NCBI RefSeq assembly: GCF_030814815.1
Contig: NZ_JAUSVR010000008.1
Location: 1 to 64,000 of the forward strand
DNA length: 64,000 nucleotides
Reading direction: 5' to 3'
DNA from: Ancylobacter amanitiformis
GTDB lineage: Bacteria > Pseudomonadota > Alphaproteobacteria > Rhizobiales > Xanthobacteraceae
The position numbers and the translations under genes were made by a program. Shown in pieces: positions 46,346 to 62,523 of this stretch (position 1 is its first letter; each line of letters begins with the position of its first letter). The notes beneath the pieces were generated by a model. It worked only from the letters and a program-made list of their open reading frames with translations, was not told where the DNA came from and did no database searches.

Positions 46346-47248
46346 TCATTCTTCCGCCGCCAGTTCGGCGCGCGCCGCGGCGAGCTGCTGTTGCAGCAGC
46401 GCGGGAGCGACGGGATAGGCAAGGTCCAGCTTGTCGATCGCCTCGACGATGGCCGCGGCGACGATGAGGCGGGTGAACCATTTACTGTCCGCCGGCACCA
46501 CGTACCACGGCGCCGCCTTGGAGGCCGTGGCGCGGATGGCCTCCTCATAGGCGTGCATGTAATCGTCCCAGTAGCGGCGTTCGGCAATGTCGGAGGGCGA
46601 GAATTTCCAGTTCTTCTCCGGGTTGTCGAGCCGCTCCAGGAAGCGCTTCTTCTGCTCGGCGGGCGACAGGTTGAGGAAGAACTTGAGGACGAGAACGCCC
46701 TGTCGCGTCCAGTAATCCTCGAAGCGGGCAATATCGGCCAGTCGCTCGTCCCAGATGCGCTTGCCGACGAATTCGGGCGGCAGCTTCTGCTTTTCAAGCA
46801 GGGCCTCGTGCACGCGCACGACCAGCGTTTCCTCGTAATAGGAGCGGTTGAAGATGCCGATCCGCCCGCGCGCCGGCACATGCGTCGCGTAGCGCCACAT
46901 GAAATCATGCGAGAGTTCTTCGGCCGAAGGCTGCTTGAACGAGACGACGTCGCAGCCCTGCGGATTGATCCGCGACATGACGTGCTTGATCGTGCTGTCC
47001 TTGCCGGCCGCGTCCATGGCCTGGAACAGGATCAGCACCGAGCGATTGCCCTGCGCGTAGAGCATCTCCTGCTCCTTCGCGAGCCATTCGGAGCCGGTCG
47101 CCAGCAACTCGGCGGCCTCCGACTTGTCCATCTTGAGGCCCAGGGTTTCGCCGGGATCGTGGTCCTTGAGGCGAAAGTCCGCGCCCTTGGTGATGCGAAA
47201 CGGATCGACGTATCGGGTAATGTTCTTGCCGATATCACCACGCAGCAT
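46346..47248 (-). CDS. ppk2: Polyphosphate kinase 2 family protein
   Basis: A 300-residue PPK2 enzyme, which uses polyphosphate to phosphorylate nucleoside diphosphates or monophosphates. Walker A is FQAMDAAGKDSTIKHV, the following ..NPQGCDVVSFKQPSAEEL.. and GIFNRSYYEE (Walker B region) and ..ERRYWDDYMHAYE.. are typical of class I one-domain PPK2. The ATG at 47248 has GGAGG about 9 bases upstream; a TTG 30 bases earlier is less likely. It is convergent with the oxidase cluster, with a 270-base spacer between. Confidence 0.92.
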   Translation of the reverse strand: MLRGDIGKNITRYVDPFRITKGADFRLKDHDPGETLGLKMDKSEAAELLATGSEWLAKEQEMLYAQGNRSVLILFQAMDAAGKDSTIKHVMSRINPQGCDVVSFKQPSAEELSHDFMWRYATHVPARGRIGIFNRSYYEETLVVRVHEALLEKQKLPPEFVGKRIWDERLADIARFEDYWTRQGVLVLKFFLNLSPAEQKKRFLERLDNPEKNWKFSPSDIAERRYWDDYMHAYEEAIRATASKAAPWYVVPADSKWFTRLIVAAAIVEAIDKLDLAYPVAPALLQQQLAAARAELAAEE

Positions 47249-47593
47249 GCCACCTGTCCTCCCAGTGTCGTCAGACAAGGTCGCATATGGCGGGCGACAC
47301 TTCTCTGCTCTTCGTCATCATTCGGTTCACGTCCCCTCGTGGGGAACCCGCCTCACGGTGCCGGCGCGTTGCCAAGCTTGCGTTGCCAGGCTTGCGTTGC
47401 CAGGCCTGCACTGCCGGCAAACAAGCCGGGAAGCGCCGGATAGCCGCCGGATAGCCGCGCCGCATCCTGCCGCGTCGTCCCCCTGCGGCCGGATGCGGCC
47501 ACGCGCCGCCGGACGTTTCCCGTTTCCCGTTCCCAGCCGACAGCCCCATCCACCACCCCGCCGCGGAAAAATCAGCGGGACGGGAATGGCGCG
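47249..47593. other. Spacer between PPK2 and the fusion-regulator promoter
   Basis: About 345 bases with no supported gene. It contains the 14-bp tandem repeat at 47366-47407; the PPK2 promoter should also lie here, but no clear hexamers were found. Confidence 0.5.
47366..47407. repeat. Three tandem copies of a 14-bp repeat
   Basis: GCGTTGCCAAGCTT, GCGTTGCCAGGCTT and GCGTTGCCAGGCCT follow each other directly. Confidence 0.9.
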
Positions 47594-47659
47594 TTGACGT
47601 GTTCAATAAATCGACATATCGTCCACATATGTTCGTGATTTCTACAACTCATATGTAGA
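47594..47659 (+). promoter_or_regulatory. Promoter and operators of the fusion regulator
   Basis: TTGACG (47594-47599) and TATCGT (47617-47622) are 17 bases apart. Downstream lie the palindrome ACATATGT (47625-47632) and the inverted repeat TCTACA-7-TGTAGA (47641-47659), which ends 6 bases before the start codon. The 19-bp span fits a dyad site for a MerR- or XRE-type dimer, so autoregulation is likely. Confidence 0.55.
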
Positions 47660-47665
47660 TTGAGA

Positions 47666-49555
47666 ATGGCCAAGACAGCCGATAATCGCTTTCCCTTCTC
47701 GATCGGTCATGTGGCGAAGGTCACGGGCATTCCGGTCTCGACGCTGCGCTCGTGGGAAGGCCAGGGGCTGCTGTCGCCGCAGAAATCGGAGAGCGGCCAC
47801 CGCTCCTATGGCGAGGCGCATATCGACCGGGTGCGGCGCATCGACCGCATGCGCCGGGTCGACGGGCAAAGCCTGTCGGTCATCCGCCGGCTGCTCGACA
47901 GCGAGGAAGAACAGGCGCCCCCCGCCGCGGCGGACGAGGAGGCGGCATCCGTCGTCGCCTTCAACAATCTGGGCGCACGGGTGCGCAGCCTGCGGCAGGA
48001 GGCCGGGCTCTCGCTGCGCGAAGTGTCGGAGCGCACGGACATCGCCACCTCGCATCTGAGCATGTTCGAGCGTGGCGTCGCCTTTCTCTCGCCGGCCCGG
48101 CTGAACGCGCTGGCGGAAGTGTTCGGCCGCACGCTGGCCGAGCTTCTGGGCGGCACCAAGGGGCGCGATTTTCCCGTGGTTCGGCGCGGCCAGGGGCGCA
48201 TCGTCGGCTCGTTCGGGCCGGGCGTGGCGATCGAGCAGCTCACCGTCTCGCAGCGCCTGATGGACGCCGAGGTCTGGACGATCGATCCCGACCGCGAGAG
48301 CGACGGTTTCTATGCCCATGAGGGCGAGGAACTCATCTACGTGCTGGAAGGCGCGCTCGAACTGGCGCTGGCCGATCGGGACGTCGAGGTGCTGGGTCCG
48401 GGCGACGGGGCTTATTTCAACAGCCGCATCGCCCATCGCTGGCGCAACCCCGGCACCGTGCCGGCCAAGGTCTTGTGGATCAACACCGATAGCAGCCGCC
48501 TCTCGGCCATGAGCTTCGAGAAGAGCGACCGTCGGCTGGGTCTCGGCGCCGGGCTGGGGGAGGGCGCGCTGAGCCTCGAACTGCCCGAGGGTGCACGCAC
48601 CTTCCGGGTGATCGAGACCCATACCGAGGGCCATCCCACCCATATCCTGATCGAGCCGCTGGAAGGGCTCGATGCCGAGACCGTCGCCGGCAAGGCGCGC
48701 CAGTTCGCGGAGCGCTACGACGCGCTGCGCCCCATGCTGCTGCATGAGCCGCGCGGCCATTCCGGCGCCTTCGGCCTGGTGCCGGTGTCGTCCACGGCGG
48801 CCGATTTCGGCGCGTTCTTCATTTCGTCCTATGGCTATCCCGGCTTCTGCGGCCACGCGGTGATGGGCTACACCGCCGCGCTGCGGGCGCTCGGGCGGCT
48901 CTCCCACACCCCCCGCTTCACCATCGAGGTGCCCGACAGCATCCTCACCGTGCAGGTGGGCGTGGAGGGCGATGCCGAGGCGATCGCGCTCGACATGCCC
49001 CCGGCCATCGTCGTCGAGCCGGGCCGCGCGGTCGTGCTGGGCGGGCGCGTGTTCAACGTCGCCATCGTGCTGTGCGGCGGCTGCTATGCGCTGATCGACG
49101 CCGAGGCCGATGGCGTGGCGCTCACGGTTCATGAGATCGAGAGCCTGCTCGCCATCGGCGCGGGGCTGCGCAGCCAGCTCAACGAGACCCTGCCGCGCCG
49201 GCATGGGATGCAGCCGGCCGTCGAGTCCGTCCTGTTCTTTGGGCCGGACGAGGCCGGCATGTCGCGCCAGTTCCTGGCGATCGACCGCCAGAAGTTCGAC
49301 CGTTCGCCCGGTGTTGCCGGCCTCGCCTGCCTGCTCGCGCTCAACACGGCGCGGGGTAAGGCGGCGCCCGGCACGCGGCTCGACGCCGTCAGCCTGTTCG
49401 GCGGGCGGCTCACCGGCGAGGTTTCCGCCGCGACCCACGGCGCCGGTGGTGCCGTGGCCGTCACGACCCGGATCACCGGACGCGCGCATCTCAAGGGCAT
49501 GGCCACGCTCATTCAGGAAGCGGGCGACCCCCTGGGCAGCGGCTTCCTGCGATAG
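47666..49555 (+). CDS. MerR-XRE-cupin-proline racemase fusion regulator
   Basis: A 629-residue protein with four domains. 10-78 is a MerR-type winged helix (FSIGHVAKVTGIPVSTLRSW..). 101-162 is an XRE helix-turn-helix (LSLREVSERTDIATSHLSMFERG). 195-275 is a cupin (HEGEELIYVLEGALEL, GDGAYFNSRIAHRW). 310-629 is a proline-racemase fold with ETHTEGHPTH, LLHEPRGHSGAFG and GFCGHAVMG (Cys395). The second catalytic site, DRSPCGTG in active enzymes, reads DRSPGVAG (Gly549), so racemisation is not expected. The last domain most resembles the enzyme at 57352-58347. It heads the importer operon by 91 bases and probably senses a pathway metabolite. One uninterrupted frame with no sign of frameshift supports a true fusion. 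Confidence 0.9.
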   Translation: MAKTADNRFPFSIGHVAKVTGIPVSTLRSWEGQGLLSPQKSESGHRSYGEAHIDRVRRIDRMRRVDGQSLSVIRRLLDSEEEQAPPAAADEEAASVVAFNNLGARVRSLRQEAGLSLREVSERTDIATSHLSMFERGVAFLSPARLNALAEVFGRTLAELLGGTKGRDFPVVRRGQGRIVGSFGPGVAIEQLTVSQRLMDAEVWTIDPDRESDGFYAHEGEELIYVLEGALELALADRDVEVLGPGDGAYFNSRIAHRWRNPGTVPAKVLWINTDSSRLSAMSFEKSDRRLGLGAGLGEGALSLELPEGARTFRVIETHTEGHPTHILIEPLEGLDAETVAGKARQFAERYDALRPMLLHEPRGHSGAFGLVPVSSTAADFGAFFISSYGYPGFCGHAVMGYTAALRALGRLSHTPRFTIEVPDSILTVQVGVEGDAEAIALDMPPAIVVEPGRAVVLGGRVFNVAIVLCGGCYALIDAEADGVALTVHEIESLLAIGAGLRSQLNETLPRRHGMQPAVESVLFFGPDEAGMSRQFLAIDRQKFDRSPGVAGLACLLALNTARGKAAPGTRLDAVSLFGGRLTGEVSAATHGAGGAVAVTTRITGRAHLKGMATLIQEAGDPLGSGFLR

Positions 49556-49646: not shown

Positions 49647-50519
49647 ATGCTCAGCCTCGCAACTGTCCGGCCGCAATCGACGGCCCGCTTCTCGCTTCAT
49701 CGCCTCGTCATGGCGGTGGCGGCTTTCGTGATCATGGCGCTGTCGAGCTACCAGGCCATGGCCGCCGATCCCAATCTGGTGCTCGACCGCATCCGCAAGA
49801 GCGGCGAACTGCGCGTGCCGGTCATGGTGGGCGAGGAGCCCGGCTATATCCGTGATCGCGCGACCGGCGCCTGGGGCGGGTTCTACATGGAATGGGCCAA
49901 CGACATCGCCACCATTCTCGGCGTGAAGGCGGTTCCGGTGGAAACCACCTGGGGCAACCTCGCCGCCGACTTCCAGGCCAACAAGATCGACATCGCCTTC
50001 GGCCTCAACCCCAATCCCAAGCGCGGGCTCGTGGTCGACTATCTCAGCGTGCCGCTGTTCACGGATGCCTGGGCGATCGTCACCAAGCCGGGCTTCACCA
50101 AGACCACCTGGAAGGAGCTCAACGACCCGTCGGTACGCATTGTCGTGCAGAAGGGCGGCACCATGCAAGTCGTGGCGGAAGCGCTGACCCCGAAGGCCAC
50201 CATCACCCCGGTCGAGGATCGTCCGCTCGGCGTGATGGAACTGCAGTCCGGCCGCGCCGACGTGATGATCGTCGCCGTCTTCGACGCCGTCGAGATCGCC
50301 AAGCAGATCAAGGGCCAGATCACGCTGCCTACCCCGATGCTGCGCAACCCCGCCACGATCGGCGTGCGCCGCGAGGAGGGCAATGAGGGCTACGAGAACT
50401 GGCTGACCAACTGGGTCAACCAGCAGCGCGCCCTCGGCCTTGCCCAGGGCAAGCTGCAGCAGGCCTTCGAGAAGCACGGCATCGACCTGTCCATGCTGCC
50501 GCCCGAATTCAGCTTCTGA
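49647..50519 (+). CDS. Amino-acid-type ABC transporter substrate-binding protein
   Basis: A 290-residue family 3 binding protein. The signal peptide is long (about 1-39, ..SYQAMA/AD). Then ..RIRKSGELRVPVMVGEEPGYIRD.., ..NLAADFQANKIDIAFGLNPNPKR.. and ..RREEGNEGYENWLTNWVNQQR.. follow the HisJ-type pattern. ATG 49647 follows AGGGA by 6 bases. It brings an amino acid to the permease and ATPase encoded after the terminator hairpin; the enzymes downstream suggest a proline- or hydroxyproline-like ligand. Confidence 0.92.
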   Translation: MLSLATVRPQSTARFSLHRLVMAVAAFVIMALSSYQAMAADPNLVLDRIRKSGELRVPVMVGEEPGYIRDRATGAWGGFYMEWANDIATILGVKAVPVETTWGNLAADFQANKIDIAFGLNPNPKRGLVVDYLSVPLFTDAWAIVTKPGFTKTTWKELNDPSVRIVVQKGGTMQVVAEALTPKATITPVEDRPLGVMELQSGRADVMIVAVFDAVEIAKQIKGQITLPTPMLRNPATIGVRREEGNEGYENWLTNWVNQQRALGLAQGKLQQAFEKHGIDLSMLPPEFSF

Positions 50520-50596: not shown

Positions 50597-51244
50597 GTGT
50601 TCGACTGGTCAGTTATCACCCAGAATCTCGATCTGCTCGGCTGGGGACTGCTCGTCACCCTGCGCTATACGGTGATTGCCTGCCTGTTGGGGCTCGTCAT
50701 CGGTCTGGTGATCGCGCTGGCCCAGCTCTCGCCGCTGCGCGTCACGCGGATGGCCGGGATGCTGTTCGTCGAGTTCTTCCGCAACGTGCCGCTCTTGGTC
50801 TGGCTGCTGTGGAGCTACTACGCCCTGCCGATCTTCGCCGGGATCCGGATCAGCCGCGAGGCGGCCGGCATCCTCGCGCTCAGCCTCTATGGCGCGGCCT
50901 ATTATGCCGAGATCCTGCGGGCGGGCATTCAGGCGCTCGACCACGGGCAGGGGGATGCGGCCAAGGCGCTGGGCATGTCGCCGCTGCAGGCCATGTATCG
51001 CATCATCCTGCCGCAGGCCTTCCGCCAGATGATCCCGCCGCTGGCCGGGCAGACCATCATCCAGATGAAGAACACGACGCTCCTGTCGGTCATCACCATT
51101 CCGGATCTGCTTTATCAGGCGAGCTACATCTCGTCCTTCACGTACCGGCCGATGGAAGTCTACACGGCGGTCGGCATCATCTTCCTGATCATCCTGGTGC
51201 CGTCGAACTATCTCGCCCGCCGGCTCGAACTGCGCAACCACTGA
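50597..51244 (+). CDS. Amino-acid-type ABC transporter permease
   Basis: A 215-residue HisM/GlnP-type permease with five helices. ..EFFRNVPLLVWLLWSYYALP.. and the coupling loop ..GDAAKALGMSPLQAMYRIILPQAFRQMIPP.. in part are conserved. The GTG at 50597 starts MFDWSVITQN, the usual N-terminus of this family. It is the only permease in the operon and probably acts as a homodimer. It lies just after the terminator hairpin. Confidence 0.92.
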   Translation: MFDWSVITQNLDLLGWGLLVTLRYTVIACLLGLVIGLVIALAQLSPLRVTRMAGMLFVEFFRNVPLLVWLLWSYYALPIFAGIRISREAAGILALSLYGAAYYAEILRAGIQALDHGQGDAAKALGMSPLQAMYRIILPQAFRQMIPPLAGQTIIQMKNTTLLSVITIPDLLYQASYISSFTYRPMEVYTAVGIIFLIILVPSNYLARRLELRNH

Positions 51245-51259: not shown

Positions 51260-52081
51260 ATGATCCCCGTTCAGTCCACCGCAGACCCGCTCGTCGAACT
51301 CCGCGATATCCGCAAGTGCTTCGGCTCGCATGAGGTGCTCAAGGGCATCGACCTTGACGTGCGCCCGGGCGAGGTGGTGGCGCTGCTCGGCTCCTCCGGC
51401 TCGGGCAAGACCACGCTGCTGCGCTGCGTCAACCTGCTCGACCAGCCGACCTCGGGCCGCATCGCCATTGCCGGGGAGCCGATCTTCGACCGCACGCCGG
51501 ACGGGCGCGACAATGCCCGTCTCAAGGGTCGCGACATCTGGGCGATGCGCAGCCGCGTGGGCATGGTGTTCCAGCAGTTCAACCTGTTTCCGCACATGAA
51601 CGTGCTCGCCAATGTGATGGAGGGGCCGCGCACGGTGCTGGGCGAGGACGAGCGCACCAACCGGGAGCGGGCGATGGACCTGCTGGCGAAGGTCGGCATG
51701 GCCGATTTCGCCGACCGCATGCCGACCCGGCTCTCGGGCGGGCAGAAACAGCGCGTCTCGATCGCCCGCGCGCTCAACATGCGCCCCGCCATGATGCTGT
51801 TCGACGAGCCGACCTCGGCGCTCGATCCCGAGCTGGTCGGCGAGGTGCTGAACACCATGATCACGCTCGCCCGCGAGGGCATGACCATGCTGGTGGTGAC
51901 GCACGAACTGGGTTTCGCGCTCGAAGTCGCCACGCGGGTCGTGTTCCTCGACCAGGGCGCCATCGCCGCGCAGGGCACGCCGCAGCAAGTGCTGCTTCAT
52001 CCGGAAAACGAGCGGGTGCGCACCTTCGTGAACCGCTTCCACGCCACGGCCGAACTCATGCGGCCGCTGCTGTCAACCTGA
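51260..52081 (+). CDS. Amino-acid-type ABC transporter ATP-binding protein
   Basis: A 273-residue GlnQ/HisP-type ATPase. Walker [11 protein letters not shown]-loop [14 protein letters not shown], signature LSGGQKQR, Walker [14 protein letters not shown], switch His in [10 protein letters not shown]. It completes the importer. It follows the permease by 15 bases, and a perfect 7-bp hairpin follows its stop. Confidence 0.94.
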
Positions 52082-52209: not shown

Positions 52210-53118
52210 ATGACGAAGACCAGTTGGCAGGGCATTCACAGCGTCCTGGTTACCCCCTTCCTGCCCGAGGGCGCGATCGACTTTCCCCGCTTCGAGGCGC
52301 TCGCCGACGCCAATATCGCCAGCGGCGCCGATGGTCTCATCGTGTGCGGCTCGACCGGCGAATTCTACGCCATGAGCGTCGCGGAGCGGGTGAAGCTGTT
52401 CGAGGCCACGGTGAAGGTGGCCGCCGGCCGCGTGCCCGTGCTGGCGGGCGTCTCCGACCTGCAGACGGACGTGGTGCTGCAGCTGATCAAGGCCGCCGAG
52501 GCCACGGGATGCGACGGTATCCTCGCGCTGCCGCCGGTCTATGCCAAGCCGGACCTGCGCGAGGCCGAGCATTTCTACCGCCGCCTCTGCGCCGCCACCG
52601 GCCTGCCGGTGATGCTGTACAACAGCCCGGCGCGCATCGGCGTCAACATCACGCCGGACCTCGTCGCGCGCCTCGCCGAGGTGCCGAACGTCGTCGCCAT
52701 CAAGGATTCCTCGGCCGACATCCAGCAGGTGGCCGAGCTGTGCCAGAAGGTGAAGGGCGAACTGGCGGTCTTCGTCGGCTATGAGACGATGATCCGCTCC
52801 TCGCTGCCGCTCGGCGTCGTCGGCGTCGTCGCCATGGCGCACCAGCTCTCCGGCCGCCTTGTGCGCCGCTATTTCGACGCCTGCGCGAGCGGCGACGGCG
52901 CCACGGCGGATGCTCTGGAGCCGGCTCTGTTCGCCATCTATCGCTGCTTCAAGACCGGCAGCTTCTATGCCGGCATCAAGGCGACGATGAACAGCCTCGG
53001 CCAGCCGGTCGGCCTGCCGCGCGAGCCGCTGCTGCCCTTCACCGATGCGCAGATGGCCAGCGTGGCGAAGATCCTCACGGAGGCCGATGTCGCCGCCGCC
53101 ATCCAGAAGGTTGCGTGA
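52210..53118 (+). CDS. DapA-family lyase/deaminase
   Basis: A 302-residue TIM-barrel enzyme of the dihydrodipicolinate synthase/N-acetylneuraminate lyase family. The Schiff-base Lys165 lies in VVAIKDSS, the catalytic Tyr137 in MLYNSP and the carboxylate-binding GSTGE at 47-51. In hydroxyproline breakdown a member of this family (LhpC) deaminates pyrroline-4-hydroxy-2-carboxylate to 2-oxoglutarate semialdehyde; the proline-racemase-type gene 3 bases later and the aldehyde dehydrogenase next support that role. Other 2-oxo acid aldolase/dehydratase activities cannot be excluded. ATG 52210 follows GAGACGAGAC. Confidence 0.88.
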   Translation: MTKTSWQGIHSVLVTPFLPEGAIDFPRFEALADANIASGADGLIVCGSTGEFYAMSVAERVKLFEATVKVAAGRVPVLAGVSDLQTDVVLQLIKAAEATGCDGILALPPVYAKPDLREAEHFYRRLCAATGLPVMLYNSPARIGVNITPDLVARLAEVPNVVAIKDSSADIQQVAELCQKVKGELAVFVGYETMIRSSLPLGVVGVVAMAHQLSGRLVRRYFDACASGDGATADALEPALFAIYRCFKTGSFYAGIKATMNSLGQPVGLPREPLLPFTDAQMASVAKILTEADVAAAIQKVA

Positions 53119-53121
53119 ACC

Positions 53122-54129
53122 ATGCGTTCCACCCGTATCATCCAGGGCATCGATTCCCACACGGCCGGCTGCCCGCTCCGCCTCATCACCTCCGGCTTCG
53201 GTCCGATCCGCGGCAAGACCATGGTGGAGAAGCGCGCCGACCTGATGAGCCGCGACTGGCTGCGCCAGCTCGTGCTGTTCGAGCCGCGCGGCTCGTTCAA
53301 CATGCCGGCCGCCGTGCTCACCGAGGCCTGCTCGCCGGATGCCGATATCGGCATGCTCATTCTTGAGCCGGATACCTATCCCCCCATGTGCGGCCACTGC
53401 GCCATGGCGGTCGCCACCATCGCGGTGGAAGCCGGCTACATCACCGCGCAGGAAGGCGAGACGCTGGTGCGCCTCGACACGCCGGCCGGCGTGGTGCCGG
53501 CGCGGGTGAAGGTGGAGAACGGCCGCGCCGTCTCCGTGACGCTGGAGATGCCGCTCAGCTTCCTCTACCAGCGCGACGTGATGGTGGAGACGAAAAGCTT
53601 CGGCACCGTGCGCGCCGACATCGCCTTCGGCGGCGATTTCTACCTCATCGTCAAGGGCCCGGACCTCGGCCTCGACCTCACCACCGACAATGCCTGGGCG
53701 CTGGTGAGCGCGGCCGCGGAACTGCGCGCCGGCCTCAAGGACATCCCGGTCCAGCACCCCACGCTGGCGCATGTGAACGAGATCTACCAGATCGAGATCA
53801 TCGGCGAGGGCGATGGCGTGCGCTTCGACGGCAAGAATGTCGTGGTCTGCCCGCCGACCGTGATCGACCGCTCGCCCTGCGGCACCGGCACCGCCTCGCG
53901 CATGGCGATGCTGCACGGCAAGGGCGAGCTGAACGTGGGCGACACGTTCCGCCATGCCGGCATTCTCGACACGGTGTTCACCGGCGAGATCCATGGCGAG
54001 GCCAGTGTCGGCGACCTGCCGGCGATCCGCTGCACCGTCACCGGCTCGGCCTACCTCACCGGCAGCTTCAACTTCTTCCTCGATCCCAACGACCCGTTCC
54101 AGCAGGGCTTCCGCCTCACCGGCGTCTGA
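53122..54129 (+). CDS. Proline racemase family, hydroxyproline epimerase-like (first)
   Basis: A 335-residue enzyme with both catalytic cysteines: Cys90 (PPMCGHCAM) and Cys253 (DRSPCGTGTASR). The N-terminal DSHTAGCPLR and LFEPRGSFNMPAAVL are typical. Two-cysteine members epimerise 4-hydroxyproline or racemise proline; trans-3-hydroxyproline dehydratases have Thr at the second position and are excluded. It would convert trans-4-hydroxy-L-proline to the cis-D isomer for oxidation. It lies between the DapA-family and aldehyde dehydrogenase genes. Confidence 0.9.
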   Translation: MRSTRIIQGIDSHTAGCPLRLITSGFGPIRGKTMVEKRADLMSRDWLRQLVLFEPRGSFNMPAAVLTEACSPDADIGMLILEPDTYPPMCGHCAMAVATIAVEAGYITAQEGETLVRLDTPAGVVPARVKVENGRAVSVTLEMPLSFLYQRDVMVETKSFGTVRADIAFGGDFYLIVKGPDLGLDLTTDNAWALVSAAAELRAGLKDIPVQHPTLAHVNEIYQIEIIGEGDGVRFDGKNVVVCPPTVIDRSPCGTGTASRMAMLHGKGELNVGDTFRHAGILDTVFTGEIHGEASVGDLPAIRCTVTGSAYLTGSFNFFLDPNDPFQQGFRLTGV

Positions 54130-54155: not shown

Positions 54156-55631
54156 ATGTCCCATGATTTCGACCCGAACGGCGTTGCCGCCATCACCGAT
54201 CACCTGATCGGCGGGCGGCGCGTCGCTGGCGACGGCGCGGCCATCGCGCTGGTGCGGCCCTCCGACGGGGCGCCGATCGGCACCATCCGCGCGGGCGACG
54301 CGGCGCTGGTGGACGAGGCGGTGCGCCTCGCCGCCACCACCCGCACCGCCTCCGGCTGGGCCGGCGCCACGCCGACCGAGCGGGCGCGGGTGTTGAAGGC
54401 GTGGGCCGACCTCATCGACGCGCGGCGCCTCGACCTCGCCCGGCTCGAAGCGGCGACCACGACCCGGCCGATCGCCGACGTCGTGACCCGCGATCTGGTC
54501 CGGGCGGCGGGCGCCGTGCGCTATTTCGCCGAATGGGCCGACAAGATCGAGGGCACGCTCATTGCCGGCGCCAATAGCGGCACGACCTTTCTGAAGCCCG
54601 AGCCCTATGGCGTCATCGCCTCCATCGCGCCGTTCAACTTCCCGGCGATCAACGCCATCTGGAAGTCCGCTCCGGCGCTCGTCACCGGCAACGCCGTGGT
54701 GCTCAAGCCTTCCGAACTCACCCCGTCCTCGGCGGTGATGATCGCGGAACTGGCGATCGAGGCGGGCCTGCCGGCCGGCCTGTTCAACGTGGTGCAGGGC
54801 GCCGGCGAGACCGGTTCAGTGCTGGTGCGCCATCCCTTGATCGGAAAGATCACCTTCACCGGCTCCTCCGCGACAGGTGCGCGGGTGATGGCGGATGCCG
54901 CCATGACCGGCACCAAGCCGCTGACGCTGGAGCTGGGCGGCAAGACGCCCCAGCTGGTGATGGACGACGCGCACGATCTCGACGCGCTCGCGGCCACCAT
55001 TGCCGGCGGCTTCCTCGCCAATGCCGGGCAGGTCTGCACCGCCGGCACCCGCCTCATCGCGCCGCGCCGCATCTTCGACGATTTGACCGAGCGCGTGGTG
55101 GCGCTGGCGCAGGCCCGCGTGCCGGGCCCCACCTGGGACAGCCGCGCCACGCTGCCGCCGATCATCAGTGAAAAGCAGGCGGCGCGGATCGACCGCATGG
55201 TCGAACAGACGGTTGCCGATGGCGCACGCGTGCTGACGGGTGGCTCGCGCTATGCCGGGCTCAACCGCGGCGCCTATTTCGAGCCGACCGTGCTGGCCGG
55301 CGTGCCCGACAGTTCGGTCGGCTTCCGCGAGGAATTCTTCGGCCCGGTCCTGTCCGTCCATGCCTATGACGACGAGGACGAGGCCATCGCCATGGCCAAC
55401 CATCCCAGCTATGCGCTGGCCGCCAGCGTTTATACCACCAGCGCCGCCAAGGCGATGGCGCTGCCCTCCCGTCTCATCGCCGGCACGGTGTGGGTCAACG
55501 GCCATGGCCGCCAGCCCGACTTCGCCACCCCGCAGGGCGGCTTTGCCGGCTCGGGTTTCGGCAAGGAGATGGGCCGCGCCGGGCTTGAGGGCTTCCTGCG
55601 CTTCAAGACCGTCTGGCTCAATCACGGCTGA
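54156..55631 (+). CDS. Aldehyde dehydrogenase (first of the racemase locus)
   Basis: A 491-residue aldehyde dehydrogenase with PFNFPAINAIWK (cofactor/substrate pocket), the general base Glu in LELGGKTPQ and catalytic Cys in NAGQVCTAG. The family ending ..GFAGSGFGKEMGRAGLEGFLRFKTVW.. is present. A likely substrate is 2-oxoglutarate semialdehyde or another amino-acid-derived aldehyde. ATG 54156 follows AGGAGAGGG by about 6 bases. It lies 26 bases after the racemase gene. Confidence 0.92.
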   Translation: MSHDFDPNGVAAITDHLIGGRRVAGDGAAIALVRPSDGAPIGTIRAGDAALVDEAVRLAATTRTASGWAGATPTERARVLKAWADLIDARRLDLARLEAATTTRPIADVVTRDLVRAAGAVRYFAEWADKIEGTLIAGANSGTTFLKPEPYGVIASIAPFNFPAINAIWKSAPALVTGNAVVLKPSELTPSSAVMIAELAIEAGLPAGLFNVVQGAGETGSVLVRHPLIGKITFTGSSATGARVMADAAMTGTKPLTLELGGKTPQLVMDDAHDLDALAATIAGGFLANAGQVCTAGTRLIAPRRIFDDLTERVVALAQARVPGPTWDSRATLPPIISEKQAARIDRMVEQTVADGARVLTGGSRYAGLNRGAYFEPTVLAGVPDSSVGFREEFFGPVLSVHAYDDEDEAIAMANHPSYALAASVYTTSAAKAMALPSRLIAGTVWVNGHGRQPDFATPQGGFAGSGFGKEMGRAGLEGFLRFKTVWLNHG

Positions 55632-55639
55632 CCGAGAAC

Positions 55640-57337
55640 ATGTCCCAGCATTCCTTTGACTATATCGTCGTCGGCGGCGGCGCGGCCGGTGCCGTGCTGG
55701 CCAGCCGGCTTTCCGAGGCGTCCAACCTCAAGGTGGCGCTGGTGGAGGCCGGCAAGGACACGCCGCCCGGCGCCGAGCCGGCCGATACGCTCGATGCCTA
55801 TCCGATCGTCGCCTATTTCAACCGCTTCTATCACTGGCAGAACCTGAAGGTTCACCTCTCCGACCCGCAGCCGGGCGCGGAAGGGCGACGCTACGAGCAG
55901 GCGCGGGTGATGGGCGGAGGAACCTCCATCAACGGTCAGTTCGCCGTCCGCGGCGTGCCGTGGGACTATGATCACTGGCGCGAGGATGGCGCGGAAGGCT
56001 GGGGCTGGGACGATGTCCTGCCCTATTTCCGCAAGCTGGAGACCGATCGCGATTTCGGCGACAGCCAGCTGCACGGCAGCCACGGCCCGCTGCCGGTGCG
56101 CCGCATCGCGGAAAAGGACTGGTCGCCCTTCGCCAGGACGGTCGCGAAGGTGCTGGACAGGCAGGGCGTGCGCAACATCGCCGACCATAATGGCGTGTTC
56201 GACGACGGCTACTTCCCGATGACCATCAACAATGTCGATGGCCAGCGCGTCTCCACCGCCCGCGCCTATCTTACCCGCGAGGTGCGCGCGAGGGCGAACC
56301 TCACCATCTTCGCCGAGACCGAGCTGACCGAACTGCTGTTCGAAGGCCGCCGCGTGGTGGGGCTGGAGGCGGTGGGTCCGCGCGGGCCGATGACCTTGAG
56401 GGCGCGCGAGGTGATCCTCTCCACCGGCGCCCTGCAGACCCCGGCGCAGCTGATGCGCGCGGGCATCGGGCCGGCCGGGCACCTGAAGGAATTCGGCATC
56501 GAGGTGCGGGCCGACCGGCCGGGGGTCGGGCAGAACCTGCAGGACCACCCGATGGTGGCCTTCGCCGCCTATCTACCCAAATCCGCCCGCCTGCCGGCCA
56601 GCCAGCGCCGGCATATCCAGATGGGCTATCGCTACACGTCCGGCCTGCCGGAGACGACGCCGGGCGACATGTTCGTGCTGCCCTCCAACCGCGCCGCCTG
56701 GCATCCGCTCGGCCGGCGGCTCGCCTCCATCATCGTCTGCGTCAACCGGCCCTATTCCACCGGCGAGGTGCGGCTGGCCGGCGCGTCGGCGCAGACGGCG
56801 CCCTTCGTCAATTTCCGCCAGCTGTCGGACGAGCGCGACCTTGCGCGGCTGGAGGACGGCATGCACCGGCTGTGGCGCATGGTGAACGACCCGGCGATGG
56901 ACGGGGTGATCGAGAACATCTTCCCCGCCACCTTCTCCGAGCGCGTGCGCAAACTCGGCGCGGTCAGCCGCGCCAACTGGTTCATGACGCTGATGGCCGC
57001 CGGCATCATGGGCACCGGTCCGCTGTCGCGCAAACTGATGATCGAGAAAATCATCACCCCCGGTCTGAAGGCGAGCGAGATGATGGGCGACCGCGGGCAA
57101 CTGCGCGCGTGGATCCGCGAGAATGCCTGCGGCAGCTGGCACGCCTCCGGCACCTGCCGGATCGGCCGTGTCGACGATCCACGCGCCGTGGTCGACAGCC
57201 GCGCCCGCGTCATCGGCGTCGAGGGGCTGCGCGTGGTCGATGCCTCGATCATGCCCTCGGTCATCAGCGGCAACACCATGCTCACCACCGTGATGGCCGG
57301 CGAGAAGATCGCCGACGCCATCAAGGCCGGGCAGTGA
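55640..57337 (+). CDS. GMC-family FAD oxidoreductase
   Basis: A 565-residue glucose-methanol-choline oxidoreductase. The FAD motif is IVVGGGAAGAVLASRLSE, the signature GGGTSINGQ lies near residue 95, and the C-terminal active site has GSWHASGTCRIG with SGNTMLTT. GMC enzymes oxidise primary or secondary alcohols. It is 8 bases after the first aldehyde dehydrogenase gene and 14 bases before the second racemase-family gene. It may oxidise the alcohol of a hydroxylated substrate; a D-hydroxyproline dehydrogenase of the usual amine-oxidase type is missing in this locus. Confidence 0.9.
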   Translation: MSQHSFDYIVVGGGAAGAVLASRLSEASNLKVALVEAGKDTPPGAEPADTLDAYPIVAYFNRFYHWQNLKVHLSDPQPGAEGRRYEQARVMGGGTSINGQFAVRGVPWDYDHWREDGAEGWGWDDVLPYFRKLETDRDFGDSQLHGSHGPLPVRRIAEKDWSPFARTVAKVLDRQGVRNIADHNGVFDDGYFPMTINNVDGQRVSTARAYLTREVRARANLTIFAETELTELLFEGRRVVGLEAVGPRGPMTLRAREVILSTGALQTPAQLMRAGIGPAGHLKEFGIEVRADRPGVGQNLQDHPMVAFAAYLPKSARLPASQRRHIQMGYRYTSGLPETTPGDMFVLPSNRAAWHPLGRRLASIIVCVNRPYSTGEVRLAGASAQTAPFVNFRQLSDERDLARLEDGMHRLWRMVNDPAMDGVIENIFPATFSERVRKLGAVSRANWFMTLMAAGIMGTGPLSRKLMIEKIITPGLKASEMMGDRGQLRAWIRENACGSWHASGTCRIGRVDDPRAVVDSRARVIGVEGLRVVDASIMPSVISGNTMLTTVMAGEKIADAIKAGQ

Positions 57338-57351
57338 GGGGGAGCGAGGCC

Positions 57352-58347
57352 ATGGCCGAGCGGCGCTGGATCGCCACGATCGACAGCCACACCGCGGGGC
57401 ACCCGACCCGCGTCGTCACCGGCGGTGTGCCGGTGCTGCACGGCGAGAGCGTCGCGGCGCGGCGGGATGATTTCCGCGCCCGTTTCGATCCGCTGCGCAC
57501 CTTCCTCCTGCATGAGCCGCGCGGCCATGCGGCGATGGTCGGCGTGGTCATGACCGAGAGCCGGGTGGCCGATTTCGGCGCCTTCTTCCTCGGCAGCTAC
57601 AAATATCTCGAAATGTGCGGCCACGCGACGATCGGCCTCGCCGTCACGCTCGACCATATGGGACTGATCGGCCCGTCCGGGCAGCGCGAGAGCCGCTTCA
57701 CGCTGGAGGTGCCGGCCGGGATCGTCACCGTGCATGTCACCCGCCGGGGCGGTACCGTGGCCGCCGTGACATTCGAGAACGTGCCGGCGCGCGTGGTCGC
57801 GACCGATGTCACGGTTTCGGCCGGCGGCCTCGCCGTGTCGGCGGATGTCGTCTGGGGCGGCAACTGGTACGGGCTGGTGCCGGCCGAGGCGGCGGGCATC
57901 GTGCTGGAGCCGCGCGGCGTCTCCCATGCGATGGCGATCGGGGCGGCGCTCAAGGCGCGGCTCAACGCGATGATCGCGGCCGGCGAGGTGCCGGGCGCGG
58001 TGGAGCCGATCGACAGCATCCTGTTCCACGCGACGCAGCAGGACGCGGATGGCCTCGTCAGCCGCCAGCTCGTGGTGCTGGAGGCCAACAAGTTCGACCG
58101 CTCGCCCTGCGGCACCGGCTCGTCCGCCCGGCTCGCCCAGCTGGTGGCGCGCGGGGTGATCGCGCCCGGCGAGACCATCCGCACCCGCAACATTCTCGAT
58201 GTCGATTTCACCGCCACGGCGATGGCGATCGAGGGCCGGGGCGATGCCATCCGCCCGCACATCGTGGGCCTCGCCCACATCACCGGCGAGCATCGCTTCG
58301 GGCTCGCCGCCGACGATCCGCTGCCCGACGGCTTCCTCTGCCGCTGA
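57352..58347 (+). CDS. Proline racemase family enzyme (second)
   Basis: A 331-residue enzyme with both cysteines intact: Cys89 (LEMCGHATIG) and Cys254 (DRSPCGTGSSAR). The start is IDSHTAGHPTRVV. It differs clearly from the first racemase-family gene product; in the stretch LLHEPRGHAAM...DFGAFFLGSY it closely matches the last domain of the fusion regulator. The pathway may thus use two stereochemical steps, or one enzyme may act on a different isomer. ATG 57352 follows GGGGGAGCGAG. It is 43 bases before the next aldehyde dehydrogenase gene. Confidence 0.9.
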   Translation: MAERRWIATIDSHTAGHPTRVVTGGVPVLHGESVAARRDDFRARFDPLRTFLLHEPRGHAAMVGVVMTESRVADFGAFFLGSYKYLEMCGHATIGLAVTLDHMGLIGPSGQRESRFTLEVPAGIVTVHVTRRGGTVAAVTFENVPARVVATDVTVSAGGLAVSADVVWGGNWYGLVPAEAAGIVLEPRGVSHAMAIGAALKARLNAMIAAGEVPGAVEPIDSILFHATQQDADGLVSRQLVVLEANKFDRSPCGTGSSARLAQLVARGVIAPGETIRTRNILDVDFTATAMAIEGRGDAIRPHIVGLAHITGEHRFGLAADDPLPDGFLCR

Positions 58348-58390
58348 CGACCATAATCGGCCCTCTCCGAGGGGCCTTCAGGAGATGACG

Positions 58391-59845
58391 ATGAGCGTAT
58401 CCGCGCTTTACGACGAGACGATCGAGCTGCTGATCGACGGCGAATGGTGCCAGGGTTCCGACGGCGCGAGCGAGGTGCTGGAAAATCCGGCGACCGGCGA
58501 GGCGCTCGGCACCGTGCCGCATGCCTCGGACGCCGATCTCGCCCGCGCGCTGGAGGCCGCCCAGCGCGGCTTCAAGGTGTGGAAGTCGATGACCGCGCAG
58601 GCGCGCTACGTCATCATGATGAAGGCGGCGGAACTGATCGAGGCGCGCAAGCAGCAGATCGGGCGGCTGCTCACGCTGGAGAACGGCAAGCCGCTGGCCG
58701 AGGCGGTGCCGGAAGTGCAGTTCGCGGCCGACGCCACGCGCTGGTATGCCGAGGAGGGCAAGCGCGCCTATGGCCGCGTGGTGCCGGCCCGCATGCCGAA
58801 TGTGCGCCAGCTGGTGCTGAAGGAGCCGGTGGGCCCGGTCGCGGCCTTCGCGGCATGGAACTTCCCGGCGTCCAACGTGATCCGCAAGATTTCCGGCGCG
58901 CTTGGCGCGGGCTGCTCAATCATCATCAAGCCGGCCGAGGAAACCCCCGGCACGGCGGTGGCGATGGCCCGCTGCTTCCAGGAGGCCGGGCTGCCCGCCG
59001 GCGTGCTCAATGTCGTGTTCGGCGTGCCCGCCCATGTCAGCGAGGTGCTGCTGGCTTCGCCCATCCCGAAGGCGGTGACGCTGACCGGCTCGACCGCCGT
59101 GGGCAAGGTGCTGCAGGGCCTCGCCGCGCGCACGCTCAAGCGCTGCACCATGGAACTGGGTGGTCACGCGCCGGTCATCGTCCATGGCGACGCCGATCTC
59201 GATCTGGCCACGCGGACGCTGGTCGCCTTCAAGTTCCGCAATGCCGGGCAGGTCTGCACCTCGCCGACGCGGTTCTTCGTGCACGAATCGCTCTACCGCC
59301 CCTTCGTCGAGCGTTTCGTCGAGCTTGCCTCGGTGCTCAAGGTAGGCAACGGCCTGGAGGCCGGCATCCAGATGGGCCCGATGATCGCCCGCCGCCGGCT
59401 GGCGGTGATGGAGGAACTGGTCGGCGATGCCGTGGCCAAGGGTGCCGAACTGAAGCTCGGCGGCCGTCGCATCGGCAATCAGGGGCATTTCTTCACCCCG
59501 ACCGTGCTGGCCGACGTGCCGGCCGACGCCGCGATCCTGTCCACCGAGCCGTTCGGCCCGATCGCGCCGATCACCCCGTTCGCCGATTTCGACGACGTCG
59601 TCGCGCGGGCGAACGCGCTGCCCTACGGGCTGGCCTCGTTCGTCTTCACCCGCTCCGGCGCGCTCGCCGCCCGCACCGAGGAGGCGCTCGACGCCGGCCT
59701 GGTGGGGGTGAACCACATGGCGGTGTCCACGCCGGAGACGCCGTTCGGCGGCGTCAATGAATCCGGCTACGGCTCGGAAAGCGGCATCGAGGGCCTCGAC
59801 GCCTTCCTGCGCACCAAGTTCGTCACCGAACTGGCCGCGCTCTGA
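58391..59845 (+). CDS. Aldehyde dehydrogenase, succinate-semialdehyde type
   Basis: A 484-residue aldehyde dehydrogenase. AAWNFPASNVIRK, the Glu of MELGGHAPV and the Cys of NAGQVCTSPTRF resemble succinate-semialdehyde and alpha-ketoglutarate-semialdehyde dehydrogenases. ATG 58391 is chosen because AGGAG lies 6 bases upstream; ATG 58385 overlaps that site. It is the last plus-strand gene of the locus, and a GC-rich hairpin follows. Confidence 0.92.
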   Translation: MSVSALYDETIELLIDGEWCQGSDGASEVLENPATGEALGTVPHASDADLARALEAAQRGFKVWKSMTAQARYVIMMKAAELIEARKQQIGRLLTLENGKPLAEAVPEVQFAADATRWYAEEGKRAYGRVVPARMPNVRQLVLKEPVGPVAAFAAWNFPASNVIRKISGALGAGCSIIIKPAEETPGTAVAMARCFQEAGLPAGVLNVVFGVPAHVSEVLLASPIPKAVTLTGSTAVGKVLQGLAARTLKRCTMELGGHAPVIVHGDADLDLATRTLVAFKFRNAGQVCTSPTRFFVHESLYRPFVERFVELASVLKVGNGLEAGIQMGPMIARRRLAVMEELVGDAVAKGAELKLGGRRIGNQGHFFTPTVLADVPADAAILSTEPFGPIAPITPFADFDDVVARANALPYGLASFVFTRSGALAARTEEALDAGLVGVNHMAVSTPETPFGGVNESGYGSESGIEGLDAFLRTKFVTELAAL

Positions 59846-59896: not shown

Positions 59897-61420
59897 TCAG
59901 CGCAGGCGGGCGACGATGCTCTTGGTGCGGCAATAGCTGCGCAGGCCTTCCATGCCCTTTTCACGGCCGAAGCCGGACTTGCGGTTGCCGCCGAACGGGA
60001 CTTCGATGCCCCCGGCGAAATATTCGTTGATGTAGACCTGCCCCGCGTCCACACGCCGGGCGAAGCGCTGCGCCTTGTCGAAGCTCGCGGTGTAGATGCC
60101 GGCCACCAGCGCGAATTCGGTGGCGTTGGCGACATGAATGGCTTCGTCGAGATCACCGACGACCTGCACCGCCAGCACGGGGCCGAAAATCTCCTCGGTC
60201 ACGATCGGGTCCTCGACGCCGCGCGCGGCGACGATGGTGGGCGCGAAGAACCAGCCGCCTTCCGCGCCGGCCGGGTGAACGATGCCGCCGCCGGCGAGGA
60301 TCGCGTTGCCGGCTGCCTCGGCGCGCCGCACATGCGCGTCGATGCGCGCCAGCTGCAGCGCCGAATTGACCGGGCCGACATCGACGCCATCCAGCCCATG
60401 GCCAAGCCGCAGCGCGCGCACCCGCGTCACCAGCCGACAAAGGAATTCGTCGGCGATCGAGCGTTCCAGCACGAGCCGCGAGCCGGCCGAACAGATCTGT
60501 CCGGCATTCTCGTAGATCGCCTCCAGCACGCCCTCCAGCGCGATGTCGAGATCGGCGTCGGCCAGCACCACCAGCGGCGACTTGCCGCCCAGTTCCAGCA
60601 CCAGCCGGGTGACGTTCTGCGCCGCCGCCTGCATCACCGCGATGCCGGTCGGTACCGAGCCGGTGAAGGTGATGTGATGTATGCCGGGATGGGCGACGAG
60701 CGGCGCGCCGGCCCGCGCGCCCGTGCCGGTGACGACGTTCAGCGCGCCGTCCGGCAGGCCGGCGCGGGTGGCGAGTTCAGCCAGCATCAGCGCGGTGAAG
60801 GGGGTCTGCTCGGCCGGCTTGGCGACGATCGCGCAGCCGGCCGCCAGCGCCGGGGCAATGCCGCGCGCGGCGGTGGAGAGCGGGTAGTTCCACGGGATGA
60901 CCTGCGCGCACACGCCGACCGGCTCGTCGAGGGTGAAGCCGAGATAGTTCCGGCCGAGCGGCAGGCTGGCGCCTTCCAGCTTGTCGGCGGCGCCGGCGTA
61001 ATATTCGAAGGCGCGGATGACGCCGCGCACATCGCCCTGCGCCTCGCTGAGCCGCTTGCCGCTGTCGAGGCATTCGACCAGCGCGAAACGGTCCGCCTCC
61101 GCGCGCAGCAGGCTCGCCATGCGCTGGAGCACGCGGCCGCGCTCGGCCGGGGTGGCCTCGCCCCACGCCCCGGTGAAGGCGGCGCGGGCCGCGGCGACGG
61201 CGCGGTCCACATCCTGCGCATCGCCATTGGCGAAGGCGGCGAAGGGCGCGCCGCGGCCGGGATCGGCGCTGTCCATGCGCGCGCCGCTGGCGGGCGGGGT
61301 CCAGCGGCCGGCGATGAAATGATCGCGCGGCAGGCCCTTGAGCGTGCCGGTGGCGCGGATCTCGGCGATGCCATCGGCGAGGGCGACGCCGGCAGGGAGC
61401 ACGTTCGCGGATGTGCTCAT
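59897..61420 (-). CDS. Aldehyde dehydrogenase (betaine-aldehyde/phenylacetaldehyde-like)
   Basis: A 507-residue aldehyde dehydrogenase with a 30-residue N-terminal extension. [12 protein letters not shown], the Glu of [11 protein letters not shown] and the Cys of [11 protein letters not shown] are complete; [24 protein letters not shown] at the end is typical of the broad betaine aldehyde dehydrogenase class. The start at 61420 overlaps the stop of the enolase-family gene (ATGA), so the two are coupled. The pair is divergent from the MocR-type gene at 62671. Confidence 0.92.
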
Positions 61421-62523
61421 GCCTCCACCTCGCTCACCTGATAGGTGGCGGCGTCCAGCCAGGCGGGCTCGATCTCCAGCCCCCAGCCGGGCCCGGCGGG
61501 GATATCGACCTTGCCGTCCTTGGCCTGCAAGGGGTTGCGCAGCACGCCGACTTCCCAGGGGTAGTAATCCTCGCCCTCGATGGAGAATTCGACATAGGGG
61601 CCGGCATTGGCCAGCGCGCCCATGATGTGGAGGGTGAAGCAGGTGACCATGAGCTGGTTGGCGGAATGCGGCGTCACCTGGATACCGGCCTCGGCCGCCA
61701 TCTGCGCCACCATCCGCATGCGCTCGACGCCGCCAATATAGCTCACATCCGGCTGCACCACGTCGACCACGCGATTCTCGATCATGTAGCGCCACAGCAT
61801 CAGGTCGCAATCCTGCTCGCCGCCGGTCACGTCGAGGTCCAGCGCGGCGGTGACTTCCCGCGTCCAGTGGTGCTGCCAGTACGGGCAGGGCTCCTCGAAA
61901 TGGACGACGCCGTGATCCTGCAAAAAGTGGCCGACCGCGATCGCCTTGGCCGGCGAATAGGCGCTGTTGCCGTCCACCAGCAGGCGGGCCCCGTCGCCGA
62001 GCGCCTTGCGCACCATCGGCACGATCGCGTCGGTGCGGCCCGGCCATTCGTCGAGGTCGTGGCCGCATTCCCGGCCGACGCGGAACTTGAAGGCGGTGTA
62101 GCCGAACTCGCCCTGCAGCCGCTTCAGCCGCTCGGCCTCGGCCTCGGGGGTGATCTCGCCGCGCTTCATGCTGGAGGCATAGACCGGGAAGGCGCGCGGC
62201 GTGCCGCCGAGCAGCTCGCACACGCTCTTGCCCGCGACCTTGCCGCGCAGGTCCCACAGCGCCGTGTCGAGCCCGCCGAGCGCGCGGAACAGGTAGGAAC
62301 AGGGGAATTTATGCTCGCGCTCGGGGATCCGCTCCACCAGCCCGCGAATGTCGTCGGCCTCCGCGCCCAGCGCGTGGGGGGCGATCTGGCGGTGGAAAAC
62401 CTGGGCCGTGATGTCGGCATTGTAGGTCGACATCTGCCCCCAGCCCTGACGGCCGTCCTCGCGCGTCACCCGCACGAAGCCGACGGCGCGATTGGAGAAG
62501 GTTTCCAGACGTTTGATCTTCAT
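61417..62523 (-). CDS. Mandelate racemase-type enolase-superfamily enzyme
   Basis: A 368-residue enolase-superfamily enzyme with a complete mandelate-racemase-type site: Lys146 (AFKFRVG), metal ligands Asp184 (LVDGNSAY), Glu210 ([10 protein letters not shown]) and Glu236 (GGEQDCD), and the Asp259-His286 dyad ([16 protein letters not shown]). These residues suit abstraction of a proton next to a carboxylate, as in sugar-acid dehydratases and racemases. FKF-R replaces the K-x-K of mandelate racemase. The substrate is unassigned; the coupled aldehyde dehydrogenase suggests dehydration to a product that yields an aldehyde. Start ATG 62523. Confidence 0.87.

Follow-up and report, generated by a model that had tools for sequence, protein, structure and literature searches.

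We analyzed a 64,000-nucleotide stretch of contig NZ_JAUSVR010000008.1 of Ancylobacter amanitiformis (the window) and found, at the head of an operon of transport and catabolic genes, a reading frame (REG) that joins two DNA-binding domains and a cupin to a nearly complete proline-racemase fold with one of its two catalytic cysteines replaced. We consider it probable that REG is the local autoregulator of this operon, with the racemase-fold domain serving as an enzyme-derived effector sensor, and that the fusion preceded the loss of the cysteine.

Domain architecture and distribution of REG

The translated frame consists of 629 residues and a terminal stop (Table 1). An earlier note on this DNA, made from the letters alone, had read four domains in it and proposed a domain search of the whole protein; Pfam recovered all four, MerR, XRE, cupin and Pro_racemase, the last match being full length and spanning profile positions 1–324 of 325. 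REG thus has the N-terminal winged HTH of the MerR family, the XRE HTH followed by a cupin that is typical of XRE–cupin regulators and the full-length profile and fold of the PF05544 superfamily. The catalytic motifs had also been read correctly. CGH starts at residue 395 and DRSPGVAG at residue 545, where Cys/Cys enzymes read DRSPCGTG; this puts Gly549 at the second catalytic position, with one catalytic cysteine lost. Racemases and epimerases use a pair of opposed acid/base residues (Cys/Cys or Ser/Cys), and trans-3-hydroxyproline dehydratases combine a Cys or Ser with a Thr in the second position. With Cys395 and Gly549, REG has neither combination, and it scores below the NCBIfam cut-offs for trans-3-hydroxyproline dehydratase.

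Table 1. Features of the REG operon, with window coordinates
Feature	Position	Strand	Basis or detail
Predicted promoter with built-in conserved element	47594..47622	+	-35 TTGACG 47594-47599, -10 TATCGT 47617-47622 (TAnnnT)
Second, degenerate element copy (TTC...C...A), 30 bases downstream of the first	47632..47646	+	14 of 19 genomes compared
Four-domain regulator REG, 629 aa	47666..49555	+	Translation, Pfam, full-length relatives
MerR-type HTH, residues 11-79	47696..47902	+	Pfam MerR_1 PF13411, E 2.1e-19
XRE-type HTH, residues 106-160	47981..48145	+	Pfam HTH_3 PF01381, E 1.1e-11
Cupin, residues 203-272	48272..48481	+	Pfam Cupin_2 PF07883, E 4.2e-17
Proline-racemase-fold domain, probable sensor, residues 315-627	48608..49546	+	Pfam Pro_racemase PF05544, E 1.5e-46
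Cys395 codon, first catalytic Cys	48848..48850	+	Kept in 19/19 fusions
Gly549 codon, in place of second catalytic Cys	49310..49312	+	Gly in 17/19, Cys in 2/19 fusions
ABC transporter solute-binding protein, family 3 (SBP)	49647..50519	+	PF00497
ABC permease (PERM)	50597..51244	+	Frame, by eye, conserved operon place
ABC ATPase, amino-acid uptake type	51260..52081	+	PF00005; best NCBIfam TcyN, GlnQ, EhuA, all below cut-offs
Dihydrodipicolinate-synthase family enzyme (DHDPS)	52210..53118	+	PF00701
PR1, proline-racemase family, both Cys kept	53122..54129	+	PF05544
Aldehyde dehydrogenase 1 (ALDH1)	54156..55631	+	PF00171
GMC oxidoreductase	55640..57337	+	PF00732/PF05199
PR2, proline-racemase family, both Cys kept	57352..58347	+	Pfam; closest to REG domain in genome
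Aldehyde dehydrogenase 2	58385..59845	+	PF00171

In the AlphaFold2 model of REG, residues 311–610 form 30 ten-residue blocks, of which 25 reached a pLDDT of at least 80, and we took the racemase domain to be well modelled; the N-terminal half was poor and the model weak outside that domain (mean pLDDT 69.9, pTM 0.53). The two facing helices of the domain start at residues 396 and 550. Among the best 50 Foldseek matches listed, the first 38 were racemase-superfamily structures, with TMt up to 0.89 (4jci, 4j9w), and the remainder diaminopimelate epimerases, O-ureidoserine racemase and PhzF. For a solved 4-hydroxyproline epimerase, the available part of PMC4113996 gives Cys88, His90 and Asp232, names the latter two as contacts of the prolyl nitrogen and has the carboxylate bridging the starts of two facing helices; C395, H397 and D545 of REG correspond to these three residues by motif.

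REG was found at full length in 19 distinct genomes, 10 of them Ancylobacter (of 30 Ancylobacter genomes) and 9 others (G081, G094, G115, G120, G122, G150, G376, UR115 and Hoeflea). Even draws recovered it from nine of 397 genomes at the order level, two of 385 at the class level and two of 398 at the phylum level, counts that each include the own genome and come from scoring the best few candidates per genome. Besides Ancylobacter species, the hosts known by name are Xanthobacteraceae bacterium 501b, Hyphomicrobiales bacterium UR115 and Hoeflea sp. YIM 152468; in the named-genome search, two of nine loci were short cupin-region matches. Among 72,556 plasmid records, none covered 80% of REG and 770 matched part of it. 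A sequencing or assembly error merging two genes, for which the earlier note had proposed looking for stops or frameshifts in relatives, is so improbable that we rejected it: the 19 genomes carry the protein at full length, with identities ranging down to about 50%, and a translation check found no stop codon in any of the 19 frames.

The earlier note had also held MerR and XRE in one chain to be unusual. The MerR–XRE–cupin part was matched at E 1e-28 or better in 19 of the 397 order genomes, nine being the fusions and ten having no racemase (frames of 270–372 residues, two with a TGA inside the matched stretch), and Pfam confirmed MerR, XRE and cupin in two rhizobial plasmid proteins; the combination recurs and we rejected it as new. 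The rhizobial proteins L062 and L063, annotated as MerR family, agree with REG in their three N-terminal domains and in the order of these, at 37–38% identity, but lack the racemase domain and lie in different neighbourhoods. Over residues 102–270, REG matches the PuuR type of XRE–cupin protein (NCBIfam NF007408, E 5.2e-10, well below the cut-off). PuuR-type regulators have neither a MerR nor a racemase domain.

Operon context and the order of events

REG lies directly upstream of the transporter gene in all 19 genomes, and the gene order REG-SBP-PERM-ATPase-DHDPS-PR1-ALDH1-GMC is the same in 19 of 19, with the locus end clipping part of it in some. PR2 follows GMC in 18 genomes, clipped by the locus end in several. 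The exception is G122, where a search of the whole genome for a PR2-type racemase returned only the fused domain (47%) and then matches of 36% and lower; the same query found PR2 at 58–66% in six other genomes. Upstream of REG, the window carries a divergent PPK2 polyphosphate kinase gene (46346–47278, minus strand, PF03976), which is present at two of the 19 REG loci compared, those of the window and of A. tetraedralis. By eye, a convergent minus-strand pair at 59897–62523 comprises an aldehyde dehydrogenase-like (59897–61420) and an enolase-superfamily-like (61417–62523) frame.

According to the available part of PMC4113996, the hydroxyproline route uses the racemase superfamily, the DHDPS family, an aldehyde dehydrogenase and an oxidase of the D-amino-acid-oxidase (DAO) type. 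The operon resembles this route except for a GMC oxidoreductase at the oxidase step. Elsewhere in the same genome (L005, contig C5), we noted by eye a Cys/Cys racemase beside a frame resembling a DAO-type oxidoreductase, and a small divergent MerR-type gene; this locus is perhaps the ordinary hydroxyproline route of the genome. Because GMC replaces the usual oxidase and because of the L005 pair, trans-4-hydroxyproline is not assured as the substrate of the operon. The nearest solved structures to the solute-binding protein in a sequence search were cyclohexadienyl dehydratases and amino-acid binding proteins, and that search indicated no ligand. Given the enzyme families of the operon, the ligand of REG is probably proline- or hydroxyproline-like.

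The first catalytic cysteine is kept in all 19 fusions. At the second motif, 17 read Gly-Val, DRSPGV(A/G/T), while two, from the genomes G120 and G122 of two different families, retain both cysteines and DRSPCGTG. The Pfam racemase model scored 251 and 249 bits for these intact fusions and 159 for REG of the window. In G120 (L052), the first motif reads MCAHG instead of MCGHG. A separate PR2 accompanies all 17 Cys-less fusions and is also present in G120, which means that PR2 is not replaced in every genome with an intact fusion.

The earlier note had proposed a phylogeny of the domain with both racemases of the locus. In a tree of 57 racemase rows rooted on PR1, the REG domains formed one clade (100/99), apart from PR2 and PR1; within it, the 17 Cys-less rows grouped together (100/100), with G120 and G122 placed beside them. 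The same branching order was obtained after removal of the motif columns and eight far rows, although PR2 then formed a single clade with only 63/40 and the position of G094 within the 17 was unsure; both racemase trees carry long-branch warnings and the PR1 root is distant. A tree of residues 1–300, rooted on three MerR–XRE–cupin proteins without racemase, again gave this order, with key branches below 95 (88/94 for the 17 rows and 80/66 for the intact two).

As the trees set the two intact fusions beside the 17, the fusion appears to have come first and the loss of the second cysteine later. The plain reading is a single fusion to a working enzyme followed by a single loss in the ancestor of the 17. 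We rejected independent fusions in G120 and G122 as unlikely, since both halves of the protein cluster with those of the remaining 17 fusions and all share the promoter element (below). The Cys-less copy of G081, from the same family as G120, is 81% identical to REG of the window, which suggests that the operon may also move between lineages.

PR2, at 38% identity over residues 308–628, is the nearest relative of the domain within its own genome. The earlier note was right in singling it out but put the likeness too strongly in calling it close, as REG and PR2 fall in separate clades. Its proposal that a pathway enzyme was duplicated holds insofar as the ancestor was an enzyme of the pathway type; the same identity and separate clades led us to reject a recent copy of PR2 made within the locus. 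A possible source is suggested by G022, an Ancylobacter without REG, and Rhizobium sp. ACO-34A, where a related operon begins with the gene of a GntR-FCD regulator and a stand-alone Cys/Cys racemase immediately precedes the binding protein (L058 and L060, respectively). The fusion could have arisen from such an arrangement, in which a regulator gene adjoins a racemase gene.

Selection on the racemase domain

Among five close genomes, mean dN/dS was 0.22 for the racemase domain of REG and 0.22 for PR2, compared with 0.06 for PR1, 0.07 for MerR, 0.13 for XRE and 0.045 for the cupin. Purifying selection equal to that on PR2 indicates that the domain is maintained and not decaying. Within it, the C-terminal part (0.28) evolves faster than both the N-terminal part (0.15) and the three other domains of REG. 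We further considered the 73 alignment columns that do not vary across 25 Cys/Cys rows (PR2, related racemases and the two intact fusions). In all 17 Cys-less fusions, 42 of these are unchanged, including Cys395, His397, Asp545 and Arg363, while 31 are altered in at least one; Cys549, Gly550 and Asp317 (to Glu) are altered in all 17 and Thr551 in 13. The altered columns and the faster C-terminal part suggest that specificity may have shifted.

The same data bear on two other explanations. If the domain were still an enzyme, using one-base chemistry by Cys395 such as dehydration or exchange, REG would be bifunctional in all 19 genomes. The retention of Cys395 throughout and the PR2-like selection would fit, and superfamily dehydratases, according to the available part of PMC4113996, place just one Cys, or a Ser, opposite Thr. 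The dehydratase row L069, however, keeps Thr and a small turn (DRSPTGSG) where the 17 fusions have Gly-Val, 31 of the 73 enzyme-invariant columns are altered in at least one of them and each of the 17 genomes has its own PR2; we regard continued catalysis as quite unlikely. Alternatively, the domain could be a tail for structure or dimerisation, with true sensing left to the cupin, as presumably in the MerR–XRE–cupin regulators without racemase. Their occurrence in 10 of 397 genomes and the position of the cupin as the slowest-evolving part of REG agree with this, but all 17 retain the pocket residues C395, H397, D545 and R363, a conservation for which a mere scaffold would have no need, and each of the 19 fusions stands first in an operon that also encodes a racemase of this superfamily. 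We hold this explanation to be unlikely and prefer the domain as a sensor derived from an enzyme.

Promoter element, proposed mechanism and known systems

The predicted REG promoter has a 17-base spacer that contains TTCAAnAnATC. In 14 of the 19 genomes, compared column by column, TTGAC, TTCAA, A, ATC, TA and T with the following C are identical, making 18 of the 30 positions of 47594–47623; mean pairwise identity was 0.64–0.77 in the two 20-base bins of 47586–47625, against 0.11–0.33 in the seven preceding bins. In the degenerate copy downstream, T47632, C47634, C47642 and A47646 are identical in the same comparison of 14 of 19 genomes. In close Ancylobacter genomes, 47600–47660 also appears by eye to hold an inverted half-site copy (ATCxACATAyc ... 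rTATGTAGAT) besides the direct repeat.

The exact pattern TTGACNNNTTCAANANATC is found upstream of the fused gene in all 19 genomes. Across 101 loci, it occurs once each in 54, all upstream of the fused gene by coordinates and several from the same genome, and it is absent from those of the 101 without the fused gene, the GntR-type ones included. Allowing up to two mismatches, the window contains one match, against 0.03 expected. A longer form of the element has one perfect match in the whole own genome and two others with three mismatches. With this single perfect match, the main target of REG is most likely its own promoter. Operators of the MerR family sit in promoters with a lengthened spacer of 19–20 bases. 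The conserved spacer here reads as 17 bases, the length found in ordinary promoters, and MerR-type activation is not indicated.

We propose that REG binds the conserved element inside its own promoter and would thereby control itself and the downstream transport and catabolic genes. From its place at the element, it would block or tune the promoter, and we infer repression by default. A cyclic imino acid that resembles proline or hydroxyproline and is consumed or produced by the operon would bind between the two lobes of the racemase domain, and closure of the domain on this ligand may alter DNA binding via the cupin, relieving or changing the block. The loss of the second cysteine, and presumably of activity, would have let the domain bind its ligand without turnover. 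In evolutionary terms, a MerR–XRE–cupin regulator would have undergone one fusion with a working racemase, a state kept in G120 and G122, before the second cysteine was lost.

In a search of mainly open-access literature, we found no report joining MerR, cupin and proline racemase or describing the REG fusion, and no racemase-fold transcriptional sensor. To our knowledge, no transcriptional sensor of the racemase fold is known. With the superfamily of proline racemase, 4-hydroxyproline 2-epimerase and trans-3-hydroxyproline dehydratase (PF05544), as described in the available part of PMC4113996, REG shares the fold, Cys395, His397 and Asp545, and differs in having Gly as the second catalytic residue and in its fusion to DNA-binding domains. 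BzdR joins an XRE HTH to a shikimate-kinase-like domain with benzoyl-CoA, not shikimate, as inducer; in the part of that study available (PMC3602430), activity loss is described as essential and the authors built an active enzyme–regulator chimera as a plausible intermediate. As proposed here for REG, the effector domain of this HTH regulator derives from an enzyme that is no longer active, whereas REG involves another enzyme family, contains MerR and cupin domains and has natural fusions that keep both catalytic cysteines. The MocR/GabR regulators, in the material available on them, likewise combine an HTH, of the GntR type, with an enzyme-fold sensor and often act on catabolic genes; unlike REG, they have a pyridoxal-phosphate aminotransferase-like domain and form a widely distributed family. 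The principle of an enzyme turned regulator is known; its realisation with a racemase and the persistence of Cys/Cys fusions seem new.

The available part of PMC3602430 describes the derivation of regulators from enzymes that gained DNA-binding domains as a widespread view that has seldom been put to a direct experimental test. Here, a presumed intermediate appears to survive together with a promoter element, an operon and an intact paralogue, so that the evolutionary steps could be assayed on native proteins. The chances are about even that the surviving forms make up a series, from a separate PR2 through a working racemase fused to the regulator (G122 and G120) to a sensing-only, one-Cys pseudo-racemase in 17 genomes. 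If they do, the fusions of G122 and G120 would still be active and would both catalyse a pathway step and control the operon, in G122 without a separate PR2. If sensing holds, REG would be a racemase-fold transcriptional sensor and a candidate imino-acid biosensor.
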